Source of the DNA: a virus
DNA length: 31,512 nucleotides
IMG/VR virus record: IMGVR_UViG_3300009182_003894
Coordinates: 1 to 31,512 of that record
Reading direction: 5' to 3' (one strand)
This document shows, piece after piece, positions 12,218 through 31,512 of this stretch. The notes beneath the pieces are model-generated. The model made no database searches. It was not told the origin of the DNA and saw only the letters and a list, made by a program, of their open reading frames with translations. A program made the position numbers and the translations under genes. How positions within the stretch are numbered: the stretch's first letter is position 1; each line of letters starts with the position of its first letter.

Positions 12218-12242
12218 TCTAATCTAAAAGGACAAACATAGA

Positions 12243-12915: not shown

Positions 12916-14100
12916 TTAAATTTTAAAATAATTGTAACCAAATACCGTATCTACTAAATCAAGTCCGCTTGGACCATAGACCCAATTAAAATTACCATAA
13001 AAGTTGTTTGTTTTTATTTTTTTCATCAACAACAATGCATTGTGAAAACTCATACTTTCATTTAATTTTTCTTTTGATACGTTTACAGTTTTATTCCAAA
13101 ATTCAGTACTATAAATAGATCCGCCGTGATATTTGAAATAAAACATATCTTTTAATGCATGAACGTGTGTAATGTATCTAGAATTTATTGCTATGTCGTC
13201 AGTTTCGCCTGTAATATATTCAAAGAACAATCTATTAATTGCATCATAATTCCATAAAGAATTACCAAACATTGGTTCAAAGAATAATGCTGTGTTTCCA
13301 TTTTTAATTATTCTATTCTCTAAAACGTTTTTTGCATAGTAAGGAGTAAATTTGTATTCAATATTTTCTAATTCTTCTATTGAAATGTTTATTTCTTTAG
13401 CAAAGTTTTTCTTAGCATCTTCTATACTAACAAGATTATCGTTAAACAAATATCCATTACTAATTCTAGTAGACAAAGGAATCTGAAACATCCACCCATC
13501 GACAGTAGCACGATGTACAGTATATTGCCAATCTGTACCATCGCCCGGAATATTATGTATCAGCGCATGATTTAATACTGGACTTTGTAGAACAAAATAA
13601 TTATCTAAATCATTAGAAAATCCTCTACTATCCATTACAAAATCATATTGATATTCTGCATCATCTACAGTTACAGTTGCATGTTCTACTCCATTTACTA
13701 ACGAATTAACATGTCCTTCTATTATTTTGAATTTATTACCCCATGTATTTTTTAGTCTGGGCAATGCAAAATCTTTTAATTTAAATGTATTAAAATGCAA
13801 AGCAAATACGCCGTCGCCCAGTGTTAGTAGCGGCCCATGAAAATCTTGATCCCTCCAATTTTCATACTTAGTAGTCCATTTGATTGTTGCATCAAGATGA
13901 TGCATGTCTTTTTCAAAATCAAAATTTAAACCTGCTTTGAGTGCTTTTGAAAATGTTCCGTTAGTACTTTCTCCGATACCAAAGGCTGGAATGTTAGGAT
14001 TATATATCAGTGTAACTTCCCAGCCTGCCGGAAGGTATGCTAAAAAATGGCAAGCAGATTGTATACCAGAACTGCCGGCGCCTAATATTGCCAGTTTCAT
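12916..14100 (-). CDS. Short flavin-dependent halogenase-like protein (394 aa)
   Basis: This belongs to the FAD-dependent tryptophan-halogenase superfamily. It has an N-terminal Rossmann motif GAGSSG (7-12), a GIGEST motif (41-46) and a lysine in ATIKW (K74) at the place of the catalytic Lys of PrnA/RebH. WMFQIP (203-208) replaces the usual WxWxIP, and FEP (E275) stands where halogenases have (F/I)EPLES. It is about 100-130 residues shorter than typical members: the stretch between K74 and the dinucleotide-binding core is compressed and GLSxGF before EP is lost. It could be a diverged halogenase, a monooxygenase-like relative, or a non-catalytic partner. Its ATG overlaps the stop of the upstream carbamoyltransferase by one base (TAATG), implying translational coupling. 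It is the last gene of the leftward unit. Confidence 0.75.
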   Translation of the reverse strand: MKLAILGAGSSGIQSACHFLAYLPAGWEVTLIYNPNIPAFGIGESTNGTFSKALKAGLNFDFEKDMHHLDATIKWTTKYENWRDQDFHGPLLTLGDGVFALHFNTFKLKDFALPRLKNTWGNKFKIIEGHVNSLVNGVEHATVTVDDAEYQYDFVMDSRGFSNDLDNYFVLQSPVLNHALIHNIPGDGTDWQYTVHRATVDGWMFQIPLSTRISNGYLFNDNLVSIEDAKKNFAKEINISIEELENIEYKFTPYYAKNVLENRIIKNGNTALFFEPMFGNSLWNYDAINRLFFEYITGETDDIAINSRYITHVHALKDMFYFKYHGGSIYSTEFWNKTVNVSKEKLNESMSFHNALLLMKKIKTNNFYGNFNWVYGPSGLDLVDTVFGYNYFKI

Positions 14101-15890: not shown

Positions 15891-15897
15891 AATAACC

Positions 15898-16512
15898 TTA
15901 TTTTAATTCTAAATCTGCGCCTGGAACTTCAGAACCAATCGTTCCTCGTGCAAATGTATTAAATGCAATGCTAATTCTTTCATTCTGTGTTAAGTTTGGT
16001 TTTACATAATGAAAACAAGTACTAGGAAATATAATAATCTCACCGTCTTCAACCGGTACTGTCCATTCAATAGAATTAGCAGGTGTATATTCAGTAGATT
16101 TCATGTTTAAGAAAAATGGCGGAGTTAATCGATTAAATGATATACTTGGTTGACTATCGCTAGTTTTAAAATAATACACACCCGATAATATACTGTTAGT
16201 ATGACTGTGCGCAGAATGTTGTTTTTGAAAACCAGTAACATTAATCCAAGAATTAGTCATGTACAGATCTACTTCAATTTTCATTAACTCTTTCATATAA
16301 GAATGTACGTGTAACATTAACTCGTTTTTTAAATTTGAAAATATAGGGTTATCAAGTATCCAACTATTGTTAGATATATCATTGCCTAATCCTTGTTCAA
16401 GAACCTCGGTAGAATAAATTTCAGTAACCTCGGATGATGTTAATTCTCTACCTAATGAGCTCTTATAAACTATAGTAGGAAATAATGGATAAAGAGTAGA
16501 TTGTTTAATCAT
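15898..16512 (-). CDS. 2OG-Fe(II) oxygenase, PF13759-like (204 aa), copy 1
   Basis: It has the pattern of the small 2OG-Fe(II) oxygenases of the TIGR02466/PF13759 type: an N-terminal YPLFPTIVY segment, then HSHTNSILSGVYYF with H102 and H104, a late FPSTCFH (H168) and ERISIAFN with R179 suited to binding 2-oxoglutarate. Such enzymes usually hydroxylate a substrate using 2-oxoglutarate and oxygen; the substrate here is unknown. Which of H102 and H104 binds iron cannot be settled by eye. It overlaps the upstream GT9-like gene by four bases (ATGA). It is a clear relative of the oxygenase on the other side of that gene (shared ERISIAFN and similar His spacing). Confidence 0.8.
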   Translation of the reverse strand: MIKQSTLYPLFPTIVYKSSLGRELTSSEVTEIYSTEVLEQGLGNDISNNSWILDNPIFSNLKNELMLHVHSYMKELMKIEVDLYMTNSWINVTGFQKQHSAHSHTNSILSGVYYFKTSDSQPSISFNRLTPPFFLNMKSTEYTPANSIEWTVPVEDGEIIIFPSTCFHYVKPNLTQNERISIAFNTFARGTIGSEVPGADLELK

Positions 16513-17444
16513 TTGGATATATTTTTAACAACAGAATTAATTACGGTTTCGATTTGATCAGGAGTAACTCTCATCATGCTTTCATTATTTGAATCTGCTA
16601 CTTCGTCAAGAGACATACGAATAGGACTGTACATTCTTCGATTTTCACCAAAATCAATTATATCAAATCTATCGCATCCAGGATACGATACATTTTCTTT
16701 AAATGTCGAACCAAGCACCACGGTGGCAGGTTTAGAAAGGGCATATGCAATATGCTGTCCTACACTATCACATCCTAAAAAATAATCAGCTGCGTTTATT
16801 AATCCAAACCATTTGCGTAAGTTAATATTTGTGATTTGATTAAAATCCTGACCACAAATATTTTTAAAATCTATAGCATTTTCACTCATGACAACTACTG
16901 TATATTTTTTTTCTAATTTTTGCACTATTGATATAACATCGTCCATAATAAAAGATTTACCGTAAATATCAGGAGTAGTTTGCTCCTTAGTCAGATTAGA
17001 TCCTCGACCAAAAGGCTGAAAAATTACAACTTTCTTATTTTTACTTTCTTTTTTGACGGTATTCAAAGTTTCAATACCGCCAAACAATTCTTCATTGCTT
17101 AATACTAGCTTAGGAGGAGGGAGATATCTGAGATCTTTTTTGTTTATTAGCAAATCAAATGCTTGAGAAATACTAGCTTTTTGATTATAATATTCCCAGA
17201 CTTGGTATGGCTCTGGCGACACAAAATTCATATCTACTAACTTGTCTCGAAATAAATTTCTATGAGCATAGTCATAGCATCTTTTGAATAATGTAGGATG
17301 TCCCTTAAAGAGATCAATACCATACTCGATAATAATAATAAAATCGTCATCCGGATTTTCTTTTTCGTACAGTTCAAACGCAGGAATTGAACATATAATT
17401 CTTCCTGCACCACCGTTAATAAAAAATGCTGTATTTCTTTTCAT
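16509..17444 (-). CDS. GT9/heptosyltransferase-like glycosyltransferase (311 aa)
   Basis: The N terminus INGGAGRIICSIPAFE resembles the first Gly-rich loop and helix of GT9 heptosyltransferases. The C-terminal half has FQPFGRGSN, then VVVMSE, and LGCDSVGQHIAYALSKPATVVLGST. The last corresponds to the GT9 nucleotide-sugar site (usually G.DSGP.HLAAALGKP...FG.T). The family moves a sugar from an ADP- or other nucleotide-sugar to a glycan. Homology is moderate, so a GT-B fold with sugar-transfer activity is likely but donor and acceptor are unknown. It lies between two paralogous oxygenase genes, four bases after the upstream one and overlapping the downstream one by four, so all three are probably translated together. 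Confidence 0.7.
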   Translation of the reverse strand: MKRNTAFFINGGAGRIICSIPAFELYEKENPDDDFIIIIEYGIDLFKGHPTLFKRCYDYAHRNLFRDKLVDMNFVSPEPYQVWEYYNQKASISQAFDLLINKKDLRYLPPPKLVLSNEELFGGIETLNTVKKESKNKKVVIFQPFGRGSNLTKEQTTPDIYGKSFIMDDVISIVQKLEKKYTVVVMSENAIDFKNICGQDFNQITNINLRKWFGLINAADYFLGCDSVGQHIAYALSKPATVVLGSTFKENVSYPGCDRFDIIDFGENRRMYSPIRMSLDEVADSNNESMMRVTPDQIETVINSVVKNISK

Positions 17445-17448
17445 AATT

Positions 17449-18066
17449 TTATATTTCTAAATATGTTAATTTTTCTTTTGAGCCTAATGCACCTTTAACA
17501 AATACATTGAACGCAATGCTAATTCTTTCTTCATCTGTGTTATTAACTTCGACACCATGTATAAGAGAAGACGGAAATACTACTACTGAATTATTATTAA
17601 TCGCAATTTTAAAACTAGTCGAGTTAAATATTCCATAATTACTGCTTTCTAAACTAATAGTCTTTTTATCATCGGTAAAAAATACAATGTTATCTTCTTT
17701 AATTGTACTTAGATAAAATACTCCGCTGATTAAACTATTAAAGTGATAATGCTTATGGTGACTAGTTGATGGTTTAGTAATATTTGCCCAAGACTGAGTT
17801 ATATAAAATGTATTTTCATCCCAAAACATAATCTTTTTTGTGTATTCATTAATTGCAAATTCAACAATTTTTTTAATTTCACATAATTCTTTATTTTCTA
17901 AAATATCTGTATCTAAACTAGCCAAATTTCCGTTTTCGTTTGTTCTAAATTCTAGATTTTTAACATAGTCAATCTCAGCATCAAATCTTTTTCTGTCAAG
18001 ATATTCGTTGCATATAAAAACAGGTTTAGAAAATAACGGATAGATTTCACTCGTCATTGTGTACAT
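17449..18066 (-). CDS. 2OG-Fe(II) oxygenase, PF13759-like (205 aa), copy 2
   Basis: Same family and layout as the oxygenase two genes downstream: YPLFSKPVF at the N terminus, HYHFNSLISGVFYL (H106, H108), FPSSLIH (H170) and ERISIAFN (R181). The candidate ligands have nearly the same spacing as in the other copy (62 against 64 residues). The first ATG has an AAAGGA only two bases away; a second ATG at 18057 (MTSEIYPLF) is 11 bases from it and matches the paralogue's N-terminal length, so the true start is uncertain. Either start lies inside the last codons of the upstream halogenase, giving a 20- or 11-base overlap. Probably an active hydroxylase with unknown substrate. Confidence 0.8.
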   Translation of the reverse strand: MYTMTSEIYPLFSKPVFICNEYLDRKRFDAEIDYVKNLEFRTNENGNLASLDTDILENKELCEIKKIVEFAINEYTKKIMFWDENTFYITQSWANITKPSTSHHKHYHFNSLISGVFYLSTIKEDNIVFFTDDKKTISLESSNYGIFNSTSFKIAINNNSVVVFPSSLIHGVEVNNTDEERISIAFNVFVKGALGSKEKLTYLEI

Positions 18067-19642
18067 TATCCTTTAAATATTGATATAGACTAGGGCACAA
18101 TTCAGCTGCACGTTGCCATTTTTTTTGAAGTATTGCACGTTTGCGTACAAATTCGTTGACTTCGTTCTTGGGATTTTGCCTAAACGCTCTCTCGGCATAC
18201 AATAACTGCAATTTACTCATTATATGAAAATGCATACCTGTTGCAACATATTGTAAACCGCCCTGCTCGTTATGCCTAAAAACAGCAAGTTTCCTCCAGG
18301 CTAAATCAAAAAAAGTATTACTTGTACTTTTAATTGACATGTCTACTATTCCTGGGCAAAACGTTTTTGACGTTATGTTATCCCAGAAATTAGTATCGTC
18401 TCTGATACTCAATGCATAATGAAGAGAAACAAATTCAGCAAATGTATTAAATGTACCACCGACTTGTGAATTATAAACGTCTCTATCCCATTGGGTAATA
18501 TGTGTTCTTTGTAAAACAGATACTAAAGATAACAAAAATTCATGTACTGAATATAATCCATTACTTTCTAACGGTTCAATAAATCCAGCACTCAACCCTA
18601 TTGCCACCACATTTTTAACCCAAGTACGTTCGTGTATTCCAACTCGCATAGGAATATCTCTAAACTCTAAAGTATCTACTTGCTCCTGTGTTCGAGGAAC
18701 AGCCATTTTATCACTCATTAGATATTGTTTAAATTCTTCTTTAGCATCTTCTGGAGAAATAAAGTTATCGCTGTATACATAACCTGTTCCTAGTCTAGTC
18801 CATAATGGAATATTCCAGCACCAACCGTGACCAATTGCGGTACAGTTAGTATACGGTTCAAGTTCTTTTTCCTTATCAACATACGGAACCTGGCATGCCC
18901 ATGCTCGATTACTTGGCAAGATGTCTGCATAAGATTTAAACGGTTCTTTCAATGCACCTGCTAGCAACATGCTTTTCCAGCCAGTACAATCTACAAATAA
19001 ATCTGCAGTAACTTCTGTTCCGTCAGATAATGTTAATTTATCAATACCAATTTCAGATGTTGAAACATCAGTAACTGTGCCTGTAATTAATTTTACACCC
19101 TTAGGTAAACTGTAACTTTCTTTAAGCCATCGACCAAATAATACCGCATCAAAGTGATATGCAACATGCATTTCTGGACGATACTCATCAAATAGTCCAT
19201 GCTCGTTTTTACTAAATTTATTAGACTCGATTAACGGCATGTTAGAAAGATAAGTTCTACAATAATCTTCAACAGGTGTATCTGGATAAAGCGCACGTTT
19301 AGCTTGCCACTCCTGAAGTCCGTTTGGCGCATCTGTTAAAACTGGAGCTCCAAACGGGTAATGAAAAGATCCTGCATCTTTTTCATAAAAATCAGTAAAC
19401 TTAATACTCATTTTGTAAGAAGCATTAGTGTATTTCATGAAATCTTTTTCATCAATTCCTAGTGAATACATCCAATGTCTTATAGTTCCTAGAGTGCTTT
19501 CTCCCACGCCCACAATAGGCATATCGGGACTTTCGATTACGACAATTTCTCTTTCAGGAAAAAAATTAATAAGCGTAGAGGCAGTCATCCAACCAGCAGA
19601 TCCTCCTCCTAATACAACTATTTTGTCGATTTTTGTTCTCAT
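18047..19642 (-). CDS. Flavin-dependent (tryptophan-type) halogenase (531 aa)
   Basis: This is the most canonical halogenase here. It shows GGGSAG (12-17) for FAD, VGVGEST (44-50), a Lys in NASYK (K77) matching PrnA/RebH Lys79, the family-defining WxWxIP as WCWNIP (274-279), and GFIEPLES with E356 matching the second catalytic residue. Length is typical. The family uses FADH2, supplied by a separate flavin reductase, and halide to make HOCl or HOBr, which reacts through the Lys; no reductase gene is seen in the window. I chose the ATG at 19642 over one at 19687 because AAAGG lies eight bases upstream and the Rossmann motif then starts normally; the longer form would run into the divergent control region. 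It is the first gene of the leftward unit. Substrate unknown; iodide or bromide use is possible, as for the cyanophage enzyme VirX1. Confidence 0.9.
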   Translation of the reverse strand: MRTKIDKIVVLGGGSAGWMTASTLINFFPEREIVVIESPDMPIVGVGESTLGTIRHWMYSLGIDEKDFMKYTNASYKMSIKFTDFYEKDAGSFHYPFGAPVLTDAPNGLQEWQAKRALYPDTPVEDYCRTYLSNMPLIESNKFSKNEHGLFDEYRPEMHVAYHFDAVLFGRWLKESYSLPKGVKLITGTVTDVSTSEIGIDKLTLSDGTEVTADLFVDCTGWKSMLLAGALKEPFKSYADILPSNRAWACQVPYVDKEKELEPYTNCTAIGHGWCWNIPLWTRLGTGYVYSDNFISPEDAKEEFKQYLMSDKMAVPRTQEQVDTLEFRDIPMRVGIHERTWVKNVVAIGLSAGFIEPLESNGLYSVHEFLLSLVSVLQRTHITQWDRDVYNSQVGGTFNTFAEFVSLHYALSIRDDTNFWDNITSKTFCPGIVDMSIKSTSNTFFDLAWRKLAVFRHNEQGGLQYVATGMHFHIMSKLQLLYAERAFRQNPKNEVNEFVRKRAILQKKWQRAAELCPSLYQYLKDNVHNDE

Positions 19643-19736
19643 CTTGATTGCCTTTCTAGTAAAGTAATTATCATAAATTTTATGCACCCTACTAGGTTAT
19701 GACTATATAATAGCATACAAAAATCAGGAAATCAAG
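19643..19736. promoter_or_regulatory. Divergent promoter region of the enzyme cluster
   Basis: These 94 bases separate the first genes of the leftward and rightward enzyme units. On the plus strand TATAAT at 19706-19711 is a good -10 box without a clear -35, and AGGAA at 19726-19730 is the ribosome-binding site for the ATG at 19737. On the minus strand a TATGATAAT-like -10 and AAAGG precede the ATG at 19642. A 13-base perfect inverted repeat (CATAAA T TTTATG, 19672-19684) lies between the two starts and could bind a regulator. No T4-like late box is present. Confidence 0.55.
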
Positions 19737-21209
19737 ATGAATGAAAAATTTAAAATCAATGTAGTCGGCAGCGGAACTGCCGGGTTGATTTCTGCTTTGA
19801 TTTTAAAAACACGATTTCCAGATTATAATATTTCAATAATTTGCTCTAAAAAAATTGGTATAATTGGAGTAGGGGAAGGATCAACTGAACACTGGCACGA
19901 GTTTGCTTCTTTTGTAGGAATAAATCTTGCAGACATGATTAAACAAACAGATGCAACATTTAAAATTGGAATTGTATTTAAAGACTGGGGTGTTCCTGAT
20001 TATATGCACAGCATTCAAAATGGATACGATGAACTAGTGGGCGAATACCCGTACATCTACGGCAGGTTAATTTCACAAGGATTTGAATCTAGTAAATTAT
20101 CTGGAGAGTCATTCTGGAAAAATAAATTAAATTCACGTTACCTGAAAGAAAACCAGTCCCCAGTGGCGCAATACCATTTTAATACTTTTAAGTTAAATGA
20201 ATTTTTATCTAAAATTGCTACAGATAAAGGAATTGAAATTATCAACGATGAAATAACTGATGTTATTTTAAATGAAGCTGGCGAAATAGATTATATTGCT
20301 AGCACTACTTCTACTTATAAAAGCAATTTTTATATAGATAGTACTGGCTTTAAAAAAATATTAATTTCTAAAATGGGTGCAAAGTGGATAAGCCATAGCA
20401 AGTATTTAAAAACTAATTCAGCAATTGTATTTCAAACGTCTGACACAGACAACTATAACATGTGGTCGTTATCTCAAGCAATGAAATATGGGTGGATGTT
20501 CAGCACTCCAACATACGGTCGTTGGGGTAACGGATACATTTATGATGATGAGTTCTTAACTCCAGAACAAGCCCAACAAGAGGTAGAAGAATTTCTAGGA
20601 ACACCGATTACGTTAGGTAAACATATTAAGTTTGACCCAGGTTCCGTGGACCGAGCATGGATTAATAATTGTTGTGCAATCGGGCTCAGTAGTAGCTTTG
20701 TGGAGCCTCTAGAAGCTTCTAGCATTGGTACCACTATCCAGCAAACATTTATGTTAATGCATAAATTAGTAAATTATAATGAGACTGTAATAGCAAATTA
20801 TAATAAATCTTTTAATGACATTATAGAAAATATTCGAGATTTTATTGTTTTACATTTTGTAACACCGAGACAAGATACAGCTTTTTGGCAAAAAATTTCT
20901 AATGTACCTTTACCGGAAAGTCTAAAACAAAAAATGAATGTTTGGAAAACTAAGTTGCCCATACGAGAAGATTTTTCAGGACTTAGCAGATACGTGCTGT
21001 TTAAAGAATTACATTTTCTATTAGTATTGCATGGTTTAAAATTATTTAATATTGATTCAATATTAAAAGAATTTGACTCCCAAGATCAGGAAATTAAAAA
21101 TCGAGCTGATCGGATTATAGACGAGCTTACTGAATACTATAAAGCTGATAATTCTGAAGTTATATCACATAAAAAAGCATTGACATTTATAAGAGAAAAT
21201 ACATTATGA
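19737..21209 (+). CDS. Flavin-dependent halogenase-like protein (490 aa)
   Basis: The protein has GSGTAG (11-16), GVGEGST (44-50), a Lys in DATFK (K76) at the catalytic Lys position, WMFSTP (253-258) in place of WxWxIP, and SFVEPLEAS with E323 at the second catalytic position. Lys and Glu are therefore kept while the WxWxIP signature is changed (second Trp to Phe, Ile to Thr). Marine viral halogenases are a diverged branch of this family, so halogenation remains plausible, but a changed specificity or a flavin monooxygenase-like activity cannot be excluded. First gene of the rightward unit, with AGGAA upstream. Its last four bases (ATGA) overlap the next halogenase-like gene, so the pair is probably made together. 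Confidence 0.82.
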   Translation: MNEKFKINVVGSGTAGLISALILKTRFPDYNISIICSKKIGIIGVGEGSTEHWHEFASFVGINLADMIKQTDATFKIGIVFKDWGVPDYMHSIQNGYDELVGEYPYIYGRLISQGFESSKLSGESFWKNKLNSRYLKENQSPVAQYHFNTFKLNEFLSKIATDKGIEIINDEITDVILNEAGEIDYIASTTSTYKSNFYIDSTGFKKILISKMGAKWISHSKYLKTNSAIVFQTSDTDNYNMWSLSQAMKYGWMFSTPTYGRWGNGYIYDDEFLTPEQAQQEVEEFLGTPITLGKHIKFDPGSVDRAWINNCCAIGLSSSFVEPLEASSIGTTIQQTFMLMHKLVNYNETVIANYNKSFNDIIENIRDFIVLHFVTPRQDTAFWQKISNVPLPESLKQKMNVWKTKLPIREDFSGLSRYVLFKELHFLLVLHGLKLFNIDSILKEFDSQDQEIKNRADRIIDELTEYYKADNSEVISHKKALTFIRENTL

Positions 21210-22690
21210 AAATAGTAGTCATCGGTGGAGGCACAGCCGGAGTAATGGCGTCGACTTATTTTAAAAGTTATTGGGGCGAATTAGTTGAAGTAGTGTCTAT
21301 TTACGATCATAGTAAACCAGGAATTGGCGTTGGCGAAAGCCTTACTATGATGTTTGATAATTACCTCAGGGGAGTTGGAGTTACAACAGTAGAATTAGTT
21401 AAGCATTGTAATGCTACAATTAAATTAGGATTAAAATTTAAAAATTGGACTAAACCTGATCATTGGTGGTTTCATAATTTTCCTGTTAACGAATGCATGA
21501 ATCGGCTTGACAGAGTAGCACAACAATTTAATTTACTAGACGCTTACGACATGGCTAATGGAACTTATGATGGCGGACAAGGTTATAGTAAATTTTATTT
21601 TGAAAATAATGTAATTCCTGATGCTAATAATTTATTATATCGTCATGCATTGCATGTAGATGCTACATTAGTTGGAAGATATATTGAGAAAAAATTTAAA
21701 GACCGTATTAAAACAATTGATGCTATTGTAGAAAACGTTGAAGTAGAAAATAATAATATTAAAAGTATTAGATTAAACACTGGCGAAATTATCACAGCCG
21801 ATTTATTTGTAGATTGTACAGGATATCAACGAGCATTGATTAGCCAACTTAATCCCGAATGGATTGATATATCTGAACAATTACCCACAGATAGAACAAT
21901 TCCTAACCCAATATTTAAACATTATGATTATATTCCACCCTACACAACAGCTGAAGCTACTAAAAATGGCTGGATATTAGATGTTCCGTTAAGTAATCGT
22001 CGAGGCACTGGCTATGTTTATTCAAGTAAGTTCATGACCGACGAAGAAGCTAAAATAGATTTTAACGCATGGTTATTAAAAAATCACAATGTTGAATTAC
22101 AATCAGACAGAGTTATTAAATTTAATAATGGTTATTTCAAAGAATCTTGGATTGGAAATTGTGTTGCAATCGGACTAGCCAGCGGGTTTGTGGAGCCGTT
22201 AGAGGCTACTAGTTTACATCATACATATCTTCAATTAGATATTATGACCAAACTTAACAATTTTAGTCCGTTACCAATGGATCGTAGATCTTACAATAAA
22301 GTACTTCAGGATGTGTATACAAATAGTTTTGAATATGTAAGGCATTTTTATAATACCAATAGAACAGATTCTGAATTTTGGAGATATTTAACCAACAATA
22401 AACCAGACTGGTTATTAGATTTAGAAGAAAAAATGTCAACAAGTTATTTAAATAATTTTGATAGTATATCTACTTCAGATGTAAAAATGTTTACATCCAT
22501 GAATTTTAACTGTATTGCTTACGGTCATGGAAAATATGATAATCAAGAAAATATAAAAAAATATTTAACCACTAAGTGGTTACAAAAATATGCTGAACAA
22601 GTATCTCACACAAATCAACAAATAAAAAATAGTGTACACCAAAATCCTGTAGATCACAGACAGTGGGTTGACTCTATTTTAAACAACTAA
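21206..22690 (+). CDS. Flavin-dependent halogenase-like protein (494 aa)
   Basis: Another superfamily member: GGGTAG (7-12), GVGES (41-45), a Lys in NATIK (K73), WILDVP (256-261) in place of WxWxIP followed by RRGTGYVYSSKF, and GFVEPLEAT (E330). DLFVDCTGYQRALI matches the core of the canonical copy, while the WxWxIP site differs from all the other three. The Lys and Glu pair is intact, so catalysis is plausible. Translationally coupled to the upstream halogenase-like gene by an ATGA overlap. The next gene, an oxygenase-like protein, follows after ten bases with AGGA in the gap. This and its upstream neighbour may recognise different sites on one substrate, or form a heteromer; neither is shown by the sequence. 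Confidence 0.82.
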   Translation: MKIVVIGGGTAGVMASTYFKSYWGELVEVVSIYDHSKPGIGVGESLTMMFDNYLRGVGVTTVELVKHCNATIKLGLKFKNWTKPDHWWFHNFPVNECMNRLDRVAQQFNLLDAYDMANGTYDGGQGYSKFYFENNVIPDANNLLYRHALHVDATLVGRYIEKKFKDRIKTIDAIVENVEVENNNIKSIRLNTGEIITADLFVDCTGYQRALISQLNPEWIDISEQLPTDRTIPNPIFKHYDYIPPYTTAEATKNGWILDVPLSNRRGTGYVYSSKFMTDEEAKIDFNAWLLKNHNVELQSDRVIKFNNGYFKESWIGNCVAIGLASGFVEPLEATSLHHTYLQLDIMTKLNNFSPLPMDRRSYNKVLQDVYTNSFEYVRHFYNTNRTDSEFWRYLTNNKPDWLLDLEEKMSTSYLNNFDSISTSDVKMFTSMNFNCIAYGHGKYDNQENIKKYLTTKWLQKYAEQVSHTNQQIKNSVHQNPVDHRQWVDSILNN

Positions 22691-22700
22691 AGGATATAAC

Positions 22701-23282
22701 ATGATTATAATTGATAATTTACTTTCATCATCGGTGTTTAAACTGGTTACTGACATTGTGGAATTTCATTCATTTCCGTGGAACTTTAATAAAAATAAAC
22801 CTGCTATTTTCACAAATGTACCTTTAGACAACGGCCAAAAATATACACCCTTTGCCAGTACATTGGAACCATTATTGTTTGCAGCTGTTGAACAGACCGG
22901 AGCGCAAGTTGATGAGATTTTTAGGATACAGGTTACTATGCAAACTAAAACTGATAAACCTTATGTAGATAATCCAACTATCAATATTCCGTTTCCACAT
23001 ACATCGGCAATATTGTATCTAACAGACTCGACCGCATCTACCAAAATCTTCAACGAAACTTACGATTTTCACACAGATATTTCTAAATACAAAGATTTTA
23101 AAGATGCTAGTCATGGATGTTTTAAGGAAAAATATAACGGTATCTCTACAGTAGCTAAAGAAGTAGAAGCAAAAGCCAACAGGTTTGTCTGTTTTGACGG
23201 AGCTCAGTATTATTCAGATTCTTCACCGACTGAAGAAGATTATAGAATAGTTATTAACTTTGATTTTTCAACTCGGGCGTAA
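22701..23282 (+). CDS. 2OG-Fe(II) oxygenase-like protein, probably lacking iron ligands (193 aa)
   Basis: The overall pattern resembles the prolyl-4-hydroxylase-like 2OG oxygenases common in marine T4-like phages: PHTSAILYL followed by a short turn, then a late NRFVCFDG and RIVINFDF (R182 suits 2-oxoglutarate binding). In those relatives, as I recall them, the first ligands are HxD and the distal His sits in YYHA. Here these places read Y88-V89-D90 and YYSD (S172), and the usual NDSDGDT turn is TDSTAST. If this alignment is right, both iron-binding histidines are gone and the protein is unlikely to be an ordinary oxygenase. It may be a scaffold or binding protein for the two halogenase-like enzymes just upstream. 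The 3' end overlaps the opposing cupin gene by 29 bases. Confidence 0.6.
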   Translation: MIIIDNLLSSSVFKLVTDIVEFHSFPWNFNKNKPAIFTNVPLDNGQKYTPFASTLEPLLFAAVEQTGAQVDEIFRIQVTMQTKTDKPYVDNPTINIPFPHTSAILYLTDSTASTKIFNETYDFHTDISKYKDFKDASHGCFKEKYNGISTVAKEVEAKANRFVCFDGAQYYSDSSPTEEDYRIVINFDFSTRA

Positions 23283-23643
23283 GCTGACTATCGCCGGGCA
23301 CAATTCTATAATTGTCTTCTACAGAATCTGCTGTACTAACTTCTAGAATTGTACTCCCGGGCAATAGTGCTTCTAATTGGTGTGGTTGCAAAGGATTATT
23401 GTGCCACACATCTCCTTGATCAAGATTGCGCTCAATTAAAGCACCATTTGTTGTATCTATGTATCTTAGAATAAATTTACCTGAATTTACAAACCAAGTT
23501 TCAGTTTTTTCTTTGTGAAAATGCATACTAAATTTTGACCCTGCATCTGTAAAAACCATTATTTTGCCGCAATAATGATCGTTAGTAGCCCAAATAAGCT
23601 CATACCCCCAACCTTTAGTAACCATGCCTTCTTGTCTGCTCAT
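23254..23643 (-). CDS. Cupin, sugar isomerase/epimerase-like (129 aa)
   Basis: KGWGYELIW near the N terminus resembles the KPWGYE of type II mannose-6-phosphate isomerase cupins. The metal-site pattern is complete: H41 and H43 in HFHKEKTE, E48 in the same block, and H88 in LQPHQLEAL. One cupin barrel of this size can be a sugar-phosphate isomerase, an epimerase or a plain binding protein; activity is not proven. AAGGA lies seven bases before the ATG. It is the only single-gene unit of the cluster, facing the rightward halogenase unit and overlapping its last gene tail to tail. Making or modifying a sugar would fit the GT9-like enzyme and carbamoyltransferase nearby. Confidence 0.72.
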   Translation of the reverse strand: MSRQEGMVTKGWGYELIWATNDHYCGKIMVFTDAGSKFSMHFHKEKTETWFVNSGKFILRYIDTTNGALIERNLDQGDVWHNNPLQPHQLEALLPGSTILEVSTADSVEDNYRIVPGDSQLTPELKNQS

Positions 23644-23758: not shown

Positions 23759-24952
23759 ATGAATTTTACTGATTATTTTATAAAAGGCCTGGGTAATACT
23801 CTAAAATTTAGAGACAGGACCGGATTTTCCTTCCAAGGAAAGATGTTCTCTATTGCACCAAATACTGTAATAGATAGTTGGTATCTCCAAGACTTTAAAA
23901 GTGCAAGTTATAAAATAGCAGTAGAATACGGTAAAGATGATATAGAACATGTAGAAATATTACTATCTGCAAGGGACGATCAAGCGTCAATAACTGTATA
24001 CGGTCGCACAAATTTAGGAAGAGATCTAGTTCAATATACTGCAACAGTTACTAATTCAGTAGTGAATTTGATAGCAAGCCCGTATTATGCTGCCAACGGC
24101 ACTACACCATTATTAGGTGTCAATCTTGTACTAAACGCAACATACAGTCAGCGGGTTAATAACTTAGAAATACATTCTACCACAGGTGAAACAGACAGTA
24201 CCGGAGGCCAAATAGGCACTGGGCTTAATTGGACTGGCAGCGCATTACCTGGTGTAACTCTTGACAGTTATGGCCGTGTATTTCTCAGTAATATTGCACA
24301 AGTAATAGTACCAGGGCAAGCAATCCTGTCAGCAGGTTTTATATTAGACACTATTAATTTTGTAAATACCGATACCAGTATTGGTATTACAACTAATACT
24401 AGTACAAATACTATAACATTTACCACGTTGGGCAACATTCCTAACTTGACTGTTAATAATTCTATAAACATAACGGCTGTTAGTACATCCAGTATTGATA
24501 ATACCACAATTGGATCTCTAGTTGCAAAACCAGCTACGTTTACGTCGCTGTCATCCAGCACTGTAATTGCTACTGGCGTTAATCAGTTGATTACAATATC
24601 TCCAACAGGAACAGGCGCTGTGGTAATGTCATCCGGTGCAACAGGATCGATTAATAGTATGACAATAGGTGCCAACTCTGCAAAATCAGCGGCATTTACC
24701 GCATTGTCATCCAACAATGCAACAAGTTTAGTTTCGACTAATCAAAATTTTACAATATCAACCACTGGTAGTTCAACATTTAGTGCATCTTCTGGTACAC
24801 GCGGATCTATGAATAATATAACAGTAGGCAACTCAACACCTAGAAGTGGTGCATTTACTACTTTACAAATTACCAATCCCGGAACAACTCCTACTAGTCT
24901 TATAACAGTAGGTAACTTAACAAAATTATTACTTGGAGTAATAGCAGCATGA
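23759..24952 (+). CDS. Tail/baseplate-attached fibre protein with VTIG repeats (397 aa)
   Basis: The N-terminal 150 residues (SIAPNTVIDSWYLQDFKSASYKI, HVEILLSARDDQASITVYGRTNLGRDL) match a domain I recognise from marine T4-like virion proteins, where it probably joins the protein to the tail. A short G-rich linker follows, then from about residue 245 three repeats of the form (S/G)I(N/D)N(T)TIG...FT(A/T)LS. Such repeats are beta-structured and fibre-forming. No catalytic motif is visible. The stop overlaps the next gene's start (ATGA), and the repeat family continues there. Confidence 0.75.
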   Translation: MNFTDYFIKGLGNTLKFRDRTGFSFQGKMFSIAPNTVIDSWYLQDFKSASYKIAVEYGKDDIEHVEILLSARDDQASITVYGRTNLGRDLVQYTATVTNSVVNLIASPYYAANGTTPLLGVNLVLNATYSQRVNNLEIHSTTGETDSTGGQIGTGLNWTGSALPGVTLDSYGRVFLSNIAQVIVPGQAILSAGFILDTINFVNTDTSIGITTNTSTNTITFTTLGNIPNLTVNNSINITAVSTSSIDNTTIGSLVAKPATFTSLSSSTVIATGVNQLITISPTGTGAVVMSSGATGSINSMTIGANSAKSAAFTALSSNNATSLVSTNQNFTISTTGSSTFSASSGTRGSMNNITVGNSTPRSGAFTTLQITNPGTTPTSLITVGNLTKLLLGVIAA

Positions 24953-25548
24953 ACGGATATACATACATTGCTTCGCCCAGCCAATCGCAAATTAGCTTAA
25001 ATGCTACCAACAACACATTAACTGTTGTTGGTAATAACGGTATTACAATTTCAACAAATCCGCTGACTAATACACTGACAATTGGGTCACAAAGCAACTT
25101 TTCAACACCAAATCTTGTGGTTACTAACTCAGTGTTTATCAATCCAGCAGTTGCTGGAACATTAGATAACGTAACTATTGGCGCATCAACTCCAAAGCCT
25201 GGCAATTTTACTACATTAACTGCAACTTCTACAGTTTCAATTAGCCCAGCCAATGCCAGTGTTACAATTTCTCCAACCGGATCAGGATCGGTGACTATTA
25301 ATCCAGGAACAACCGGTTCAATTAATAATATGTCAATCGGTGGAACAACCCCGGCGTCCGGAGCGTTTACTAGTTTGTCAGCAACAAGCGGCCAAGTAAC
25401 ACTTGCAGCAGGTGCAAATAATATCAGTTTATCAACAACAGGTAGCGGAGTGATCAGTATAACAAGTGCAGCTACTGGGACTATGAACAACGTGGCAATT
25501 GGTGGCACCACTCCTGCGCCCGGCACATTTACTTCAGTGTCGATGTCT
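24488..25548 (+). repeat. Six VTIG-type repeats shared by two adjacent genes
   Basis: The unit, about 40-70 residues apart, reads (T/S)-(L/I/M)-(N/D)-N-x-(T/S/A)-I-G-x-x-T-P-x-x-G-x-F-T-(T/S)-L in its best copies. Three copies lie in the 397-residue protein and three in the 227-residue protein, with the gene boundary between copies three and four. This suggests the two genes share a common origin or exchange repeats. Confidence 0.65.
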
Positions 25549-25632
25549 TCAGCACCAGCAGGTAATTCAAGTGCAGTAACTGTGCAATATGCTACAAAAA
25601 TTGCAGCCGCATTTGCAGTAGCCCTGGCTTAA
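24949..25632 (+). CDS. Short fibre protein with VTIG repeats (227 aa)
   Basis: Begins inside the upstream stop (ATGA). After an N-terminal region with NTLTVVGNNGITISTNPLTN come three VTIG repeats (LDNVTIGASTPKPGNFTTL, INNMSIGGTTPASGAFTSL, MNNVAIGGTTPAPGTFTSV) and a short Ala-rich end. It has no attachment domain like that of its upstream neighbour, so it may add a distal segment to it or form a separate short fibre. Beta-rich, no catalytic motif. It lies 15 bases before the next structural gene. Confidence 0.7.
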   Translation: MNGYTYIASPSQSQISLNATNNTLTVVGNNGITISTNPLTNTLTIGSQSNFSTPNLVVTNSVFINPAVAGTLDNVTIGASTPKPGNFTTLTATSTVSISPANASVTISPTGSGSVTINPGTTGSINNMSIGGTTPASGAFTSLSATSGQVTLAAGANNISLSTTGSGVISITSAATGTMNNVAIGGTTPAPGTFTSVSMSSAPAGNSSAVTVQYATKIAAAFAVALA

Positions 25633-25647
25633 AGGCATCGTATACCT

Positions 25648-26937
25648 ATGACTGTTATTTCAAAATTATTTAGATCAGACTCTGGATTTACTAGTCCGTA
25701 TTTTTTAGTAGACGTTTCGGGAAATCTTATTACGCAAACCTTAACAGTGGCTGGTAATAGGATTGAACTAGTATCCGGAGCAAAAATAACCACAGCTGGA
25801 CAAACTTTACTATCTCAGACCACACTGGGTTCTAGTGTTGTTAATATACTTGGAACACTAACTGGATTGACAATTTCTGGCCCGTTATCGAACACAGGAA
25901 CAACTAATTTAGGATTGATTAGTAATGTTACGATTGCCGGAGGAACCGCTGGTCAAGTATTAACTACTGACGGGAATGGTGTTTTAAGTTGGGCAACAGT
26001 AAGCGGCGGCGGCGGCACTACAATTAACGGTTCAACTACATTATCAGGATTGACCGATGTTAATATTACAAGCCCTTCAGACGGTCAAGTATTAAAATAT
26101 AGTACATCTCAAGGAAAATGGATACCTTCTGCAGACTTAGTTGGCAATGCGGTGTCGGGAATTCAGCTAACAGCTCTTAGTGTGTCTACAGCAACCGCAA
26201 GCGGAAGCGGTGGTTTATCTTATAATAACTTATCTGGTGTTTTTACATTTACTCCACCTGTTATTCCACTGTTCACTGGCGGAACTGTAAGCGGGTCAAC
26301 TACATTTAGTTCTTCAGTAACTTTTAATTCAAGTGCAATTTTTAGTTCTGCTATTACATTCAGTGCCGGAGCAACTTTTAGCGGTGCTTTATCATTTGGT
26401 AATGCAGTAACATTTAATAGTCAAACCACGTTTACTGGATCCACTAATTTAGGTCCTGTTGGAAATTTATCAATAACTGGAGGAACAGCTGGGCAAGTAT
26501 TAACTACTAACGGTTCTGGATCTTTAAGTTGGGTAACGCAAACTGTAACGGTTGTTGCTGCTAGTAGAACATCTGTATCAGTCACAACTAGTAGTATTGC
26601 GGCAGGATCTAGTGCCAACTATACCATAACTGGCTATAAAGGCTATATGTTGTATAGTATTCAAACTTCATATGGTGCCTGGGTTACTGTTTATTCTAGT
26701 ACCGCAGCAAGAACTTCAGATGCATCCAGAGCTATTACTACTGATCCAACTCCTGGTTCAGGAGTCATTGCAGAAATGATTTCAACAACAGGAACTACAC
26801 AATATTTTAGTCCAGCAATTGTGGGATATAGTAGTGAAGCAACACCTACAACTAGTATTCCTCTTAAAATTTATAATAACGGAGCATCTGCTTCAGTTAT
26901 AACTGTAACACTTACTATATTACAAACAGAATCTTAA
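25648..26937 (+). CDS. Tail fibre protein with GQVLTT repeats and distal domain (429 aa)
   Basis: Two copies of a fibre motif, GGTAGQVLTTDGNGVLSW (near residue 108) and GGTAGQVLTTNGSGSLSW (near 283), bracket a region of SxxTFSSSxTFNSS-type strands that probably forms a trimeric fibre shaft. GLSYNNLSGVFTFTPP in the middle is familiar from marine T4-like fibres. The last 130 residues form a separate domain (KGYMLYSIQTSYGAWVTVY ... TTSIPLKIYNNG) that I take to be the distal or host-contacting end. No enzyme motif seen. It lies 15 bases after the VTIG protein and 35 before the peptidase, so these genes may share a transcript. Confidence 0.75.
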   Translation: MTVISKLFRSDSGFTSPYFLVDVSGNLITQTLTVAGNRIELVSGAKITTAGQTLLSQTTLGSSVVNILGTLTGLTISGPLSNTGTTNLGLISNVTIAGGTAGQVLTTDGNGVLSWATVSGGGGTTINGSTTLSGLTDVNITSPSDGQVLKYSTSQGKWIPSADLVGNAVSGIQLTALSVSTATASGSGGLSYNNLSGVFTFTPPVIPLFTGGTVSGSTTFSSSVTFNSSAIFSSAITFSAGATFSGALSFGNAVTFNSQTTFTGSTNLGPVGNLSITGGTAGQVLTTNGSGSLSWVTQTVTVVAASRTSVSVTTSSIAAGSSANYTITGYKGYMLYSIQTSYGAWVTVYSSTAARTSDASRAITTDPTPGSGVIAEMISTTGTTQYFSPAIVGYSSEATPTTSIPLKIYNNGASASVITVTLTILQTES

Positions 26938-26972: not shown

Positions 26973-28208
26973 ATGGAAGCTCAATCAGCACATTTATTTG
27001 AAGTAGATTTAATTGATCCCGCAACAGGGCAAGCACCATCTGCGTTACCAGTTGCTGGCCGACTTACTCCTCCTCAAATTGCAATAGCATACAATATTCC
27101 TAGTTCTTCTGGGTTTGGTGTAAAGATCGGAATTCTCAGCTTTGGCGGTGGATTTTTACAATCTGATCTTAATAAATCATGGGCAGACTTACAATCAGCC
27201 GGTCTACTATCTTCAGCATACGCAGTACCAACAGTTACACAAGTATTACTAGACGGTCAGACTGGTGTTTTTTCAAGAGGAAATACATTCCACGATGGCG
27301 CAAGCGGAGAAAATACTGTAGATATTTTTTGTGCGGCCACTATGGCTCCGCAAGCTAGCATTACTATCTACATAGGTAGTACATACCAAAGTATGCTAAC
27401 ACAAGCAATTGCTGATGGTATGCACATTATTACAATTAGTTGGGCTACTAATGAATACACATCGGACGAACAATATTTTACCAATGCAACTAATGCTGGA
27501 ATAACAGTACTTGCAGCGTCGGGTGACTGGGGTTCAGTGGTAGGAACAACTGGTAGCACTATTGGATTGTGCTATCCAGCATCTAGCCCTAATGTTATAT
27601 CTGTCGGTGGTACTAGACTTACTCTAAATGGTAGCAATGGACGTTTAACAGAAACCGATGATAATAGAGACAGTGCGTTTGGTAGTACATGGGGCGGTGG
27701 CGGTGGCGTAAGTACAGTATTTTCATTACCTAGTTGGCAATCTGGTTTATTCTATACTCCTATTACTAGCGGAGTAACAGGTAGTCCTACAGCATTGTCT
27801 AATCGAGGTGCTCCTGATTTTTCAGCTCCTATGAACGCTTACGCTTTATATTATAACGGATCAATTTCTGGCTATGGCGGTACTAGTTTATCAAGCCCAA
27901 CTATGGCAGGTATGCTTGCTAGATTTCAACAACTCACCGGAGTTCGACGAACTAGTGCTGACTGGAATACTATAGCATATGGTAATACCAGTGCTTTTTA
28001 TGATATAACTGTAGGAACAAATAATACCGTAATTAATAGTGGATACGCAGGAACTGTTGGCTGGGATGCTGTAACCGGCTTAGGACCACCTAACGGAACT
28101 AGCATTTATAAATCAATACATACTGGTTCTACATTTCCTAAACAAAATTACGGATTTCGCCCAGTAACAGGACAAACTTACCCAAGAAAAACCACTGGTG
28201 TCCGTTAA
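26973..28208 (+). CDS. S53 sedolisin/kumamolisin-like serine peptidase (411 aa)
   Basis: The catalytic set of family S53 is complete: E113 and D117 in GENTVD (ExxxD), D185 in ASGDWG (oxyanion hole), and S305 in GGTSLSSP (usual GTSxxxP). A calcium site is recognisable as YDIT (D344) and GWDAVTGLG (D365), with spacing like kumamolisin's. The mature-domain opening LTPPQIAIAYNIP lies at residues 31-43, so only a 30-residue leader stands where other S53 enzymes have a pro-domain of about 150 residues or more. No signal peptide is seen. After the domain comes a basic 30-residue tail. The S53 family usually acts outside cells, often at acid pH. Placement between fibre genes suggests a virion-borne peptidase cutting host surface proteins or maturing fibres; both are inferences. 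Confidence 0.88.
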   Translation: MEAQSAHLFEVDLIDPATGQAPSALPVAGRLTPPQIAIAYNIPSSSGFGVKIGILSFGGGFLQSDLNKSWADLQSAGLLSSAYAVPTVTQVLLDGQTGVFSRGNTFHDGASGENTVDIFCAATMAPQASITIYIGSTYQSMLTQAIADGMHIITISWATNEYTSDEQYFTNATNAGITVLAASGDWGSVVGTTGSTIGLCYPASSPNVISVGGTRLTLNGSNGRLTETDDNRDSAFGSTWGGGGGVSTVFSLPSWQSGLFYTPITSGVTGSPTALSNRGAPDFSAPMNAYALYYNGSISGYGGTSLSSPTMAGMLARFQQLTGVRRTSADWNTIAYGNTSAFYDITVGTNNTVINSGYAGTVGWDAVTGLGPPNGTSIYKSIHTGSTFPKQNYGFRPVTGQTYPRKTTGVR

Positions 28209-28338: not shown

Positions 28339-31300
28339 ATGGCAAAGAGTCAACTTAGACAGTACGTTTTTAATGCAGCACTAGGGCAAATTGAAGTACC
28401 TGGTAAGATAGATTTACAACAATTATTAGTTATTACCGATACTACTAAGAACGTTATACTTTATAATTTTGCAGATCCTTCCTATTTAGGAACTTCTGTA
28501 TCATTCGTCCGTGCAAACGACACAAATTTTATAACAGCATTGGACAATACCGACGGTAATACTATTATCCAGTTAAATGCTGCCACAATAACTAGTATTT
28601 CAACTAATAGTATTATCAGCAGTGATGCAATACAGATTTTTTACGAAAGTCCATTTCAATATGTAAGAAGTCCAGAAATTGGTACAGATGCGTTTGAGCG
28701 TATGCGTGTAGCGGCTCCGCAAAGTTTACTTGATGCTGACTTTGAATATGGTATGCAACCAACCAAATGGTTGACTGTTAGTCAACAACGTGGTATACCT
28801 AGCATTTATGAAATTCCAGGCACTGACATAACTGTTTCAGCTGCAACTTCAGATGCCAGCACACAATCTGGCGGCTCTTCCACAGCAGAAAGTATTATCA
28901 CAATTACCACAGCTTCTGCGCATAATTATATTGCAGGACAGCCAATTACTATCAAAGGATTTAATCCAGCTATTACAGGTTTCGACCGTGCTGAGGGATC
29001 TTTCTTTGTATACACAGTTGTAAACTCAACACAATTTACTTTTATTGCCAAAGGTAAAGTAGGTTTTAGTAACGGCGATAGTATCTATACTCCATTCATT
29101 CAATTACGTGCAGGCGGTTACTATTCAGGATCTGCTATTAATGCAGTTATTAATTGTACAGTTACTGGAACTAACGGTACTGGCAACGTAGTAACGGTAA
29201 CAAGCACAACTGGTATGTCAGTGGGATCACCATTCACTGTTAATCAAATTATTACCAACGCTGTTGCAACTAATAATTCAACTAATTATATCACGGTGGG
29301 ATCTACCATAGGTATGTATGCTAACATGCCATTACTGTTCTCGGGAACTAGTTTTGGTGGATTGACTACTGGTAGTACTTACTACGTACAAAGTATCATT
29401 GATACAAAAACAATTACAGTTGTGACAGTTTCAAGCGGCTCAACTAATCCAGTATTAACTACAACAACGGGCGGCAATATGTATGTTACTGGTGGCGCAA
29501 GTTTTGGTGGCTTGGTTGCAGGAACACAATATTATATTGCCAGTATACCTAGTGGTACCACACTAACATTGAGTAATAATATTAATTATAACGCTACAGT
29601 TACCGCAACAAACGCTATTAATAATTCAGTGACCTTTACCACAACTAATAACATGACTGTAGGTGAAGCTGTTGCTCTTTCTGGTAGTACATTTGGTAAC
29701 TTACAAGCAACCACATATTATGTGTATCAGATCATTGATAGTAGAAATGCTATTTTAAGCACCTCAGCAACTCTTTCTGTGATGATTCAAACAACCGCAA
29801 CAGGGTCTATGACTGCAGCTGTGGGCAGTGCAATTCCATTAACCGCAGGTACAAATACTGGTTACTTGTTTGGAGTTGCAATCAGCAACCCAACTTATAC
29901 AGTCAGCACCCCGGTTACAAGTTGTAGCTTTACCGCTTCTATTACTGGAACAGTACTAACAGTTACACAAGTTCAAAGTGGTACTTTAGCACCAGGGCAG
30001 GGCATTGCACTAAGTGCAAATAATACAGTGCCAAGTTTAACATCAATTGTAAGTCAGCTTACAGGTACTACAGGACAAACTGGAACATATCAGCTTAACA
30101 CCACTAGTAGTATTGGATCTACCGCAACTTTTATTAGTACAAATGGATTCTGCGTAGTCACTGTTAACACGGGCAATGCGCCCCACGGATTACTTCCAGG
30201 AAGTACACTACTAACTTACGTAACTTCAGACACGGGAACAAATAACCATTTGTTTGTGGCTGGTCCGTACTTTGTAGAAAGCGTAAGTACAAATACAGTA
30301 GCTGGCCAAGTTATTGCTAATCAGATGACTTACACTGCACGTAGTCCTGGATTTATACAAACAGGCACACCTATTGTAGCAGCGTTATATGCAAGAAGTG
30401 ACAGCTTTTATTCTCATAGACCGTTTGACGGTGGAGTAAGTTTAGGTACAAGTTTACCAAGTCACGGTGCTCAAGCAATACGTATGAGTAAAAAGTATAT
30501 TCGTTATCAATCTGGTAAATCAATTAACTTTAATACTGGCTTGTTAATGGCTCCAAATTACGATGTAAGATCTGTAGTAGCATCCAGCACAAATATTGGT
30601 GCAACAATTACTATTACAACAGATGACGTTGATCACGGTGCTCAAGTAGGTGCAACTATTACACTAACTGGAGTTATAACATCTGGATACAACGGAACAT
30701 ATACTGTTGGTAACATTATTGATGAGCGTACACTTACAGTTGTTGCAAATCAAACATTGGGCGCAGCTGGATCTGCTGCAATTTCAGATCCTTGCTTTTT
30801 AAGTTTAAGTAACTGGTATGGAGCAAGTGTACGTAGCGGAACGTACGATGAACAAAACGGTGTATTTTTCCAATACGACGGCCAAATTATATCTGCTGTT
30901 AAACGCAGTTCAACATTTCAATTGGCAGGTACAATTAACGTAGTTGTAGGTTCTGGACAAATTGTTGGTATTAACACACGATTTACTACACAACTGGCAG
31001 CAGGCGATCGCATAGTTATACGCGGTATGAGTCACATTGTAACGCAAGTTAGTAATGACACACTAATGTATGTTAATCCGCAATATCGTGGATATGCATC
31101 AATCAGCGGTATTAAAGCAGCTAAAACAATTGATTACTCAGTCCCGCAGAGTAAATGGAATGTAGATCGTTGCGATGGATCAAATGATGCATTTAATCCT
31201 AGTGGATATCGAATAATTCCCATTAAGATGCAGATGGTTGCGGTACAATGGACATGGTATGGCGCTGGATTTATTGATTGGATGCTACGTGGTCCTGAGG

Positions 31301-31512
31301 GCAAGTACATCACAGTGCATCGTTTGCGTAATAACAACGTGAACAATGAAGCGTGGATGCGCTCTGGTAACTTGCCAGTGCGTTACGAAGTTCTAAATGA
31401 AAGTGCTAGAAGCCAGATAGTTGGAACAAGCTCAGTTGGCGTATCTGATCCTGTTATTAGTGTATTAGATAACACATTCTTCCCAACACCTGCATCGGGA
31501 TATCCAATAACA
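28339..31512 (+). CDS. Large virion structural protein (3' end outside window, at least 1058 aa)
   Basis: ATG with GGAG upstream; the frame is open to the window edge, so the C terminus is missing. The N-terminal part (MAKSQLRQYVFNAALGQIEVPG ... FERMRVAAPQSLLDADFEYG, TKWLTVSQQRGIPSIYEIPGTD) is a block I recognise from large structural proteins of marine T4-like phages. Residues about 310-475 contain three similar beta modules (FGGLTTGSTYYVQSI, FGGLVAGTQYYIASI, FGNLQATTYYVYQI). Near 560-590 is a GTYQLN segment like the Thr/Gly inserts of the giant fibre. The last visible part (MQMVAVQWTWYGAGFIDWMLRGPEG) is a conserved Trp-rich block. Likely a baseplate- or tail-attached protein; exact role unknown. 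Confidence 0.75.
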   Translation, partial: MAKSQLRQYVFNAALGQIEVPGKIDLQQLLVITDTTKNVILYNFADPSYLGTSVSFVRANDTNFITALDNTDGNTIIQLNAATITSISTNSIISSDAIQIFYESPFQYVRSPEIGTDAFERMRVAAPQSLLDADFEYGMQPTKWLTVSQQRGIPSIYEIPGTDITVSAATSDASTQSGGSSTAESIITITTASAHNYIAGQPITIKGFNPAITGFDRAEGSFFVYTVVNSTQFTFIAKGKVGFSNGDSIYTPFIQLRAGGYYSGSAINAVINCTVTGTNGTGNVVTVTSTTGMSVGSPFTVNQIITNAVATNNSTNYITVGSTIGMYANMPLLFSGTSFGGLTTGSTYYVQSIIDTKTITVVTVSSGSTNPVLTTTTGGNMYVTGGASFGGLVAGTQYYIASIPSGTTLTLSNNINYNATVTATNAINNSVTFTTTNNMTVGEAVALSGSTFGNLQATTYYVYQIIDSRNAILSTSATLSVMIQTTATGSMTAAVGSAIPLTAGTNTGYLFGVAISNPTYTVSTPVTSCSFTASITGTVLTVTQVQSGTLAPGQGIALSANNTVPSLTSIVSQLTGTTGQTGTYQLNTTSSIGSTATFISTNGFCVVTVNTGNAPHGLLPGSTLLTYVTSDTGTNNHLFVAGPYFVESVSTNTVAGQVIANQMTYTARSPGFIQTGTPIVAALYARSDSFYSHRPFDGGVSLGTSLPSHGAQAIRMSKKYIRYQSGKSINFNTGLLMAPNYDVRSVVASSTNIGATITITTDDVDHGAQVGATITLTGVITSGYNGTYTVGNIIDERTLTVVANQTLGAAGSAAISDPCFLSLSNWYGASVRSGTYDEQNGVFFQYDGQIISAVKRSSTFQLAGTINVVVGSGQIVGINTRFTTQLAAGDRIVIRGMSHIVTQVSNDTLMYVNPQYRGYASISGIKAAKTIDYSVPQSKWNVDRCDGSNDAFNPSGYRIIPIKMQMVAVQWTWYGAGFIDWMLRGPEGKYITVHRLRNNNVNNEAWMRSGNLPVRYEVLNESARSQIVGTSSVGVSDPVISVLDNTFFPTPASGYPIT

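Follow-up and report, generated by a model that had tools for sequence, protein, structure and literature searches.

What is a sedolisin-type (S53) peptidase doing between the fibre genes of a phage? The question is raised by a 31,512-nucleotide stretch of viral DNA (IMG/VR record IMGVR_UViG_3300009182_003894; hereafter the window), in which positions 26973-28208 of the plus strand encode a protein of 411 residues. A sequence-only reading had proposed that this is an S53 peptidase with a complete catalytic set and calcium site, a short leader in place of the usual pro-domain, and structural genes on either side. We analysed the gene by phmmer, Pfam, sequence alignment and an AlphaFold model, and compared its surroundings with those of related viral loci.

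The peptidase and its source genome

A phmmer search of the PDB returned kumamolisin as the best sequence match (E 3.1e-34 over 350 residues), with residues 31-381 of the window protein, the catalytic domain (27063-28115, plus strand), aligning to residues 6-354 of mature kumamolisin; sedolisin and tripeptidyl-peptidase 1 came after the kumamolisins. Kumamolisins were also the best PDB fold matches of the AlphaFold model (E 4.9e-25; pLDDT 79.9, pTM 0.86). The only Pfam match was to PF00082 (35.9 bits, cut-off 21.8), a clan-level match covering only profile positions 72-256. The Asp-His-Ser triad of S8 peptidases is absent from the window protein, whose catalytic residues in the alignment are E/D/D/S. 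The homology is far beyond chance, and by these sequence and model comparisons the open reading frame is confirmed as a member of MEROPS S53 (clan SB), a family of acid-type serine peptidases.

The four catalytic residues lie where the sequence-only reading had placed them: E113 (codon 27309-27311), D117 (27321-27323), D185 (27525-27527) and S305 (27885-27887), all on the plus strand. They are invariant in a 25-sequence alignment, as are D344 (28002-28004, plus strand) and D365 (28065-28067, plus strand), and they are kept in 53/53 non-redundant phage homologues. The calcium site was likewise borne out: D344 and D365 line up with that of kumamolisin in the phmmer alignment and, as putative ligands, are kept in 48/53 and 50/53 of these homologues, respectively. 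Together, the fold match and the aligned positions count indirectly against a structure in which the four catalytic residues lie far apart. The intact E/D/D/S set suggests that the protein is an active peptidase. In catalytic fold, E/D/D/S set and calcium-site aspartates it resembles kumamolisin and kumamolisin-As, its best sequence and fold match; unlike kumamolisin, which has a pro-domain, it lacks both that domain and a signal peptide, and it ends in a phage-specific tail.

Across its full length, the window matches positions 46879-78390 of a 345,369-base IMG/VR contig with 99.978% identity. This contig has 371 open reading frames and a T4-type gp23 (PF07068, E 1.7e-80), which is 73% identical to that of Sinorhizobium phage Phosso, 71% to that of Vibrio phage 2.275.O and 68% to that of PA5oct. 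Judged by these capsid protein identities, the source is a T4-related jumbo phage, and the earlier proposal to look for relatives in marine phage genomes needs adjusting to phages of this kind.

The view that S53 peptidases are atypical of phages held up. A tblastn search found no relative of the window protein in 50,697 catalogued phage records, and the best four matches in a viral structure library were giant-virus proteins, two named as subtilase-family and two as S8/S53; phage matches there were weaker, to subtilase-like proteins. The giant-virus proteins (Homavirus, Barrevirus and others) share with the window protein a virus-encoded S53-like fold, but belong to viruses of eukaryotes and lack a phage tail context. 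Among papers naming both phage and sedolisin, none appeared from its title or the start of its abstract to concern a phage S53. The closest cellular matches of the window protein are about 35% identical. S53 relatives are, nonetheless, encoded on more than 80 IMG/VR contigs, and in view of this recurrence, together with the gp23 and the 371 open reading frames on the 345-kb contig, host or assembly contamination was rejected.

In IMG/VR, a protein search gave 39 contigs and an alignment-based search matched 124, of which 80 were kept. The first homologue search (the 39 contigs) used one pattern from the C-terminal tail; the later searches, by alignment and by the fibre domain c2C described below, did without it. 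The contigs stem from overlapping metagenomes, and counts called non-redundant refer to sequences less than 90% identical. Locus L023, with a frameshift, and L256, with an early stop, may be decayed copies or reflect errors of assembly.

Leader and pro-domain

The first 30 residues of the protein (26973-27062, plus strand) stand where a pro-domain would sit. As had been noted from the sequence, the pro-domain is missing and there is no sign of a signal peptide: Pro-kuma_activ (PF09286) was unmatched in the window protein at E<=0.1 in Pfam, and no hydrophobic, signal-like stretch was found in the 30 residues ahead of the catalytic domain. The pro-domain is usual in S53 but lies outside the peptidase unit by which membership of the family is defined; in known sedolisins the prosegment is thought to be necessary for correct folding (PMC6278154). 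The sequence-only reading missed that close relatives do have a pro-domain; it also missed the usual occupancy of this gene position by S8 proteases and the C-terminal tail that the two families share. A sister phage group carries 140-176 N-terminal residues in place of the short leader, and a phage S53 with such a long N terminus (L029) matches PF09286 with E 4.9e-11.

We placed 53 non-redundant phage and 38 cellular S53 sequences in a FastTree tree with midpoint rooting. The phage S53s group together (support 0.954), and every phage S53 with a leader of 24-64 residues, gene starts being assigned by rule, falls in one clade (support 1.0). That clade excludes those with an N-terminal region of 140-176 residues, whose branching is weakly supported. 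Because close phage relatives keep the pro-domain, its absence from the window protein would represent a loss inside phages, and the simplest reading of this midpoint-rooted tree is that the loss occurred once. A sedolisin clade that apparently manages without a folding pro-domain would make it testable why sedolisins need one.

The fibre slot and the shared tail

The gene directly upstream (25648-26937, plus strand; 429 residues) matches PHROG 9627/15343 and a tail fibre PHROG and belongs to the family that directly precedes tailed peptidases. Downstream lies a virion structural gene, incomplete in the window (28339-31512, plus strand; PHROG 5838, E 1.7e-176) and encoding 1646 residues in the 345-kb relative, so the claimed structural genes are found on both sides. 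Among the first 39 S53 loci, nearly all S53 genes are directly behind this one fibre family. The fibre ends in an all-beta C-terminal domain, c2C (26554-26934, plus strand; model pLDDT 95.9), which is the proposed dock for the peptidase. The c2C fold gave no confident match, the best having E 3e-3 (virus turrets and GOLD domains, with weak matches to furin and Tk-SP). Substitution of c2C for the pro-domain is unlikely, because c2C is also found with relatives that bear one.

We searched for c2C independently, without reference to the peptidase. It was found in 42 catalogued phage records, 40 of them from Synechococcus phages and two from marine viruses. In the 14 catalogued phages examined, the gene after c2C encodes an S8-type protease in 11 and a different, non-peptidase protein in three (ten proteins were scanned with Pfam and the rest assigned by sequence similarity). 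The best 80 of 586 IMG/VR loci had S8 in this position in 58 cases, S53 in 14 and another protein in eight; a peptidase of either family is therefore next to the c2C fibre in 72/80. Spacing between fibre and peptidase is mostly 2, 7 or -3 nt. One shared backbone, consisting of the fibre, the slot and the same gene of about 203 residues, occurs with the slot filled by S8, filled by S53 or empty. Thus, the S53 gene occupies a conserved slot that is usually filled by S8 and is shared by the two families, which is a new observation. Fibres with c2C also occur beside no peptidase (L217, L219 and L221) or beside another protein, and the domain must therefore have other uses.

The S8 proteases of Synechococcus myoviruses (S-H38, QPB07966.1; S-WAM2, AOV61888.1; S-CREM1, UYA57622.1) have the slot, the fibre domain and the tail in common with the window protein, but differ from it in family (PF00082, 40-103 bits) and in having their own N-terminal region. 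No functional study of these proteases was found in the literature searched. Slots are also seen with other contents. Non-peptidase proteins of 600-930 residues, which share a C-terminal region and are perhaps adhesins, fill the slot at L045, L050 and L052 (Sf-CH1b, AG-345-F15 and S-BM3), and at L166, L167, L175, L179 and L180 the c2C fibre is followed by an unrelated protein of 174-184 residues and no peptidase. The gene from 28339 onward was considered as a homologue of the cyanophage structural gene after the S8 slot and rejected for lack of similarity, and evidence from the S-PM2d175 adhesin block (PMC9910659) was therefore not used.

The 345-kb genome has a single c2C fibre domain and a single S53, as well as a separate, tail-less S8 protease. 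This second peptidase (324567-326111 of the contig, G001; locus L161) has an N-terminal extension and lies outside the fibre slot, adjoining a run of similar small proteins of 174-310 residues.

The C-terminal tail of the window protein, FPKQNYGFRPVTGQTYPRKTTGVR (about residues 386-411; 28128-28205, plus strand), is the proposed docking peptide. Residues 386-394 and 396-411 have low model confidence, as for disorder. These last 26 or so residues are nearly invariant among relatives whose catalytic domains are only about 40% identical. The motif common to both families is FPKxN..RPxxGxx[YW]PR, the S53 form being FPKQNYGFRPxxGxxYPR; in slot S8s it stands at the end or as a link to an extra domain, for example 'GSVFPKINYKPRPSSGAVWPR' in L185. 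A profile made from S53 tails alone, not fitted to S8, matched 34 of the 63 slot S8s (near-duplicates among them) and 0/635 background proteins at E<=0.001, and 58/63 and 2/635, respectively, at E<=1. The tail was present in 35/40 slot S8s and 0/7 other S8s, the latter comprising those of S-SCSM1 and P-SSM2, the second S8 of the jumbo phage, and relatives. A search of catalogued phages with the tail peptide gave no match, presumably because so short a query misses diverged S8 tails. In five cyanophage slot S8s (L043, L044, L051, L053 and L054) an extra domain after the tail reads like a cupredoxin ('YYYICQFHSGM'); in ACG-2014h this domain matches Pfam Copper-bind below the cut-off.

Among non-redundant S53s, the tail is found in 40/41 behind c2C, the single remaining one having a variant tail, and in 0/12 elsewhere (Fisher p 5e-11, for sequences that are phylogenetically non-independent). 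Ten of the 12 not behind c2C follow a fibre ending '..GxxGDxW..', and all ten of these carry a W-repeat tail, with no mixed fibre/tail pair; both sets of patterns were drawn up after viewing the sequences, and the counts are descriptive, not tests. The second pairing was seen at L258-L268, L271, L277, L281 and L282, L263 excepted. The tail itself is present in pro-domain-bearing S53s as well as in those without a pro-domain.

Probable location on the tail and possible function

At L018 and L019 a single open reading frame of 1413 residues encodes an S53 followed by Big_9 and five He_PIG Ig-like domains, and at L250 and L282 the S53 is followed by a glycine-rich domain (PF21722). The C-terminal part of the L018 fusion has matches (E 1e-44 to 5e-52) in L007, L015 and L016, where they are separate genes at or beside that of the S53; the fusion was also compared with the window's downstream gene, with no match. 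L269 has, at 3808-7893, an S8 (residues 5-542) and an S53 (731-1099) in one open reading frame of 1362 residues, with both catalytic sets intact by eye.

Synechococcus phage S-SCSM1 has an S8 relative of 1411 residues, SSCSM1_228, without tail or upstream c2C, which sits after a 'virion protein' gene and carries the GenBank note '(virion protein)'. ORF213 and ORF214 of this phage bear the same note and several other baseplate genes do not; the enzymes corresponding to ORF213 and ORF214 are reported to have been detected in virions by mass spectrometry (PMC9602691). From the annotation note, rather than from the peptide table, we infer that it marks proteins detected in this way. Peptidase genes of P-HM1 and P-HM2 were described as syntenic but diverged, in a passage that assigns them no role (Sullivan et al., 2010, PMC3037559), and the slot peptidase was not identifiable in the accessible portions of the S-CREM1 and S-SZBM1 virion proteome papers. 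With S53s joined to fibre domains of the Ig-like and glycine-rich kinds, and with a virion-protein label on an S8 relative, a location of the peptidase on the phage tail is well supported by the sequence data, and docking to the fibre through the C-terminal tail is likely.

The earlier suggestion of a tail-borne peptidase thus agrees with the constant pairing with a fibre, with the fusions and with the parallel in S8; of its two proposed roles, action on the host surface seems likelier than processing of fibre proteins. With moderate confidence, we favour an active S53 at the fibre tip of the virion, docked by its tail and cutting a host-surface protein, with S53 and S8 exchanged in the slot. 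Fibre and peptidase would be made together, the disordered peptidase tail would dock to the conserved c2C at the end of the fibre, and the fibre would carry the peptidase to the cell surface. When the phage meets the cell, the peptidase would cleave a protein on the surface or close to it, such as a receptor, S-layer or matrix. The sequences show the family, the catalytic residues, the missing pro-domain, the slot, the tail common to both families and the fusions; presence in the virion of this phage, binding of the tail to c2C, the substrate and the timing are what we infer. Docking is proposed to need the tail but no particular catalytic fold, which would let S53 and S8 replace each other in the same slot.

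Chief among the alternatives is a maturation protease, made with the fibre and cutting it or a neighbour at assembly, its tail keeping it on the substrate. Phage structural proteases are generally common, and the gene's position directly behind the fibre, with very short gaps, would suit such an enzyme. However, the joining of S53s to Ig-like and glycine-rich domains of fibres suggests that the peptidase remains in the virion, one fibre type is served by two peptidase families, and the fibre does not always need a peptidase, since the same domain occurs without one at L217, L219 and L221. We consider this alternative unlikely. Rather less probable still is that the tail controls the peptidase in place of a pro-domain, as an autoinhibitory or self-cleaved peptide, and is no dock. 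In favour of this, the tail is disordered in the model and follows the catalytic domain of a protein without a pro-domain; but it is equally found in pro-domain S53s and in S8s that have their own N-terminal region, and it tracks the type of upstream fibre, not the pro-domain.

A sedolisin fold serving only as a receptor-binding tip, without catalysis, would fit the non-peptidase proteins in the slots of Sf-CH1b, S-BM3 and AG-345-F15, but is very improbable: drift would not preserve E/D/D/S in 53/53 homologues, down to about 37% identity. An intracellular host-takeover or counter-defence enzyme, in the tail region by chance, would explain the absence of a signal peptide, but can hardly be credited given the constant fibre partner, the fibre-domain fusions and the second fibre/tail pairing.

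The favoured reading, a peptidase at the fibre tip, has precedents in part. The gp38 gene of T2/S16-type phages lies directly behind the long-fibre gene, and its product is a non-enzymatic adhesin at the fibre tip; the window S53 is like this distal adhesin in gene position, and some S53 fusions have glycine-rich domains, although we do not claim homology. Tailspike depolymerases are exchangeable virion enzymes that remove a surface barrier, but they cut polysaccharide, whereas the window peptidase would cut protein. Phage tail enzymes known to aid entry mostly attack sugars or peptidoglycan; with fibre-paired peptidases, T4-like and jumbo phages would have protein cutting as a further means of entry. 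If the fibre-tip reading is true, many marine cyanophage genes labelled 'hypothetical' or 'subtilisin-like' would gain a likely function; if docking is true, the tail could serve as a short tag by which proteins are mounted on phage fibres. A broader reading, to which we give slightly less than an even chance, is that of a general docking code, in which every type of fibre end would pair with its own short peptidase tail (RPxxGxxYPR for c2C, W-repeats for fibres ending in GDxW) and peptidase families would be swapped to digest host-surface proteins. Such a code would be the protein-cutting counterpart of tailspike depolymerases.

Several other features of the window were recorded. Ahead of the fibre, two repeat-rich proteins of 397 and 227 residues (23759-25632, plus strand), with repetitive sequence and no PHROG match, are probably fibre parts. 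A single T4-type late promoter site (TATAAATA) occurs in the window, which is below chance expectation, and it does not lie near the S53 gene. Within the tail region, 12916-23643 holds a tryptophan-halogenase-like gene cluster, possibly a modification pathway. Three halogenase-like genes were recognised by Pfam (12916-14100, minus strand; 19737-21209 and 21206-22690, plus strand) and a fourth (18047-19687, minus strand) by similarity to these; a carbamoyltransferase gene (14100-15890, minus strand) and small genes resembling oxygenases and a cupin complete the cluster. Finally, 10421-12869 contains a glycine-rich/He_PIG adhesin-like gene followed by a gene resembling a tail assembly chaperone (PF16778).
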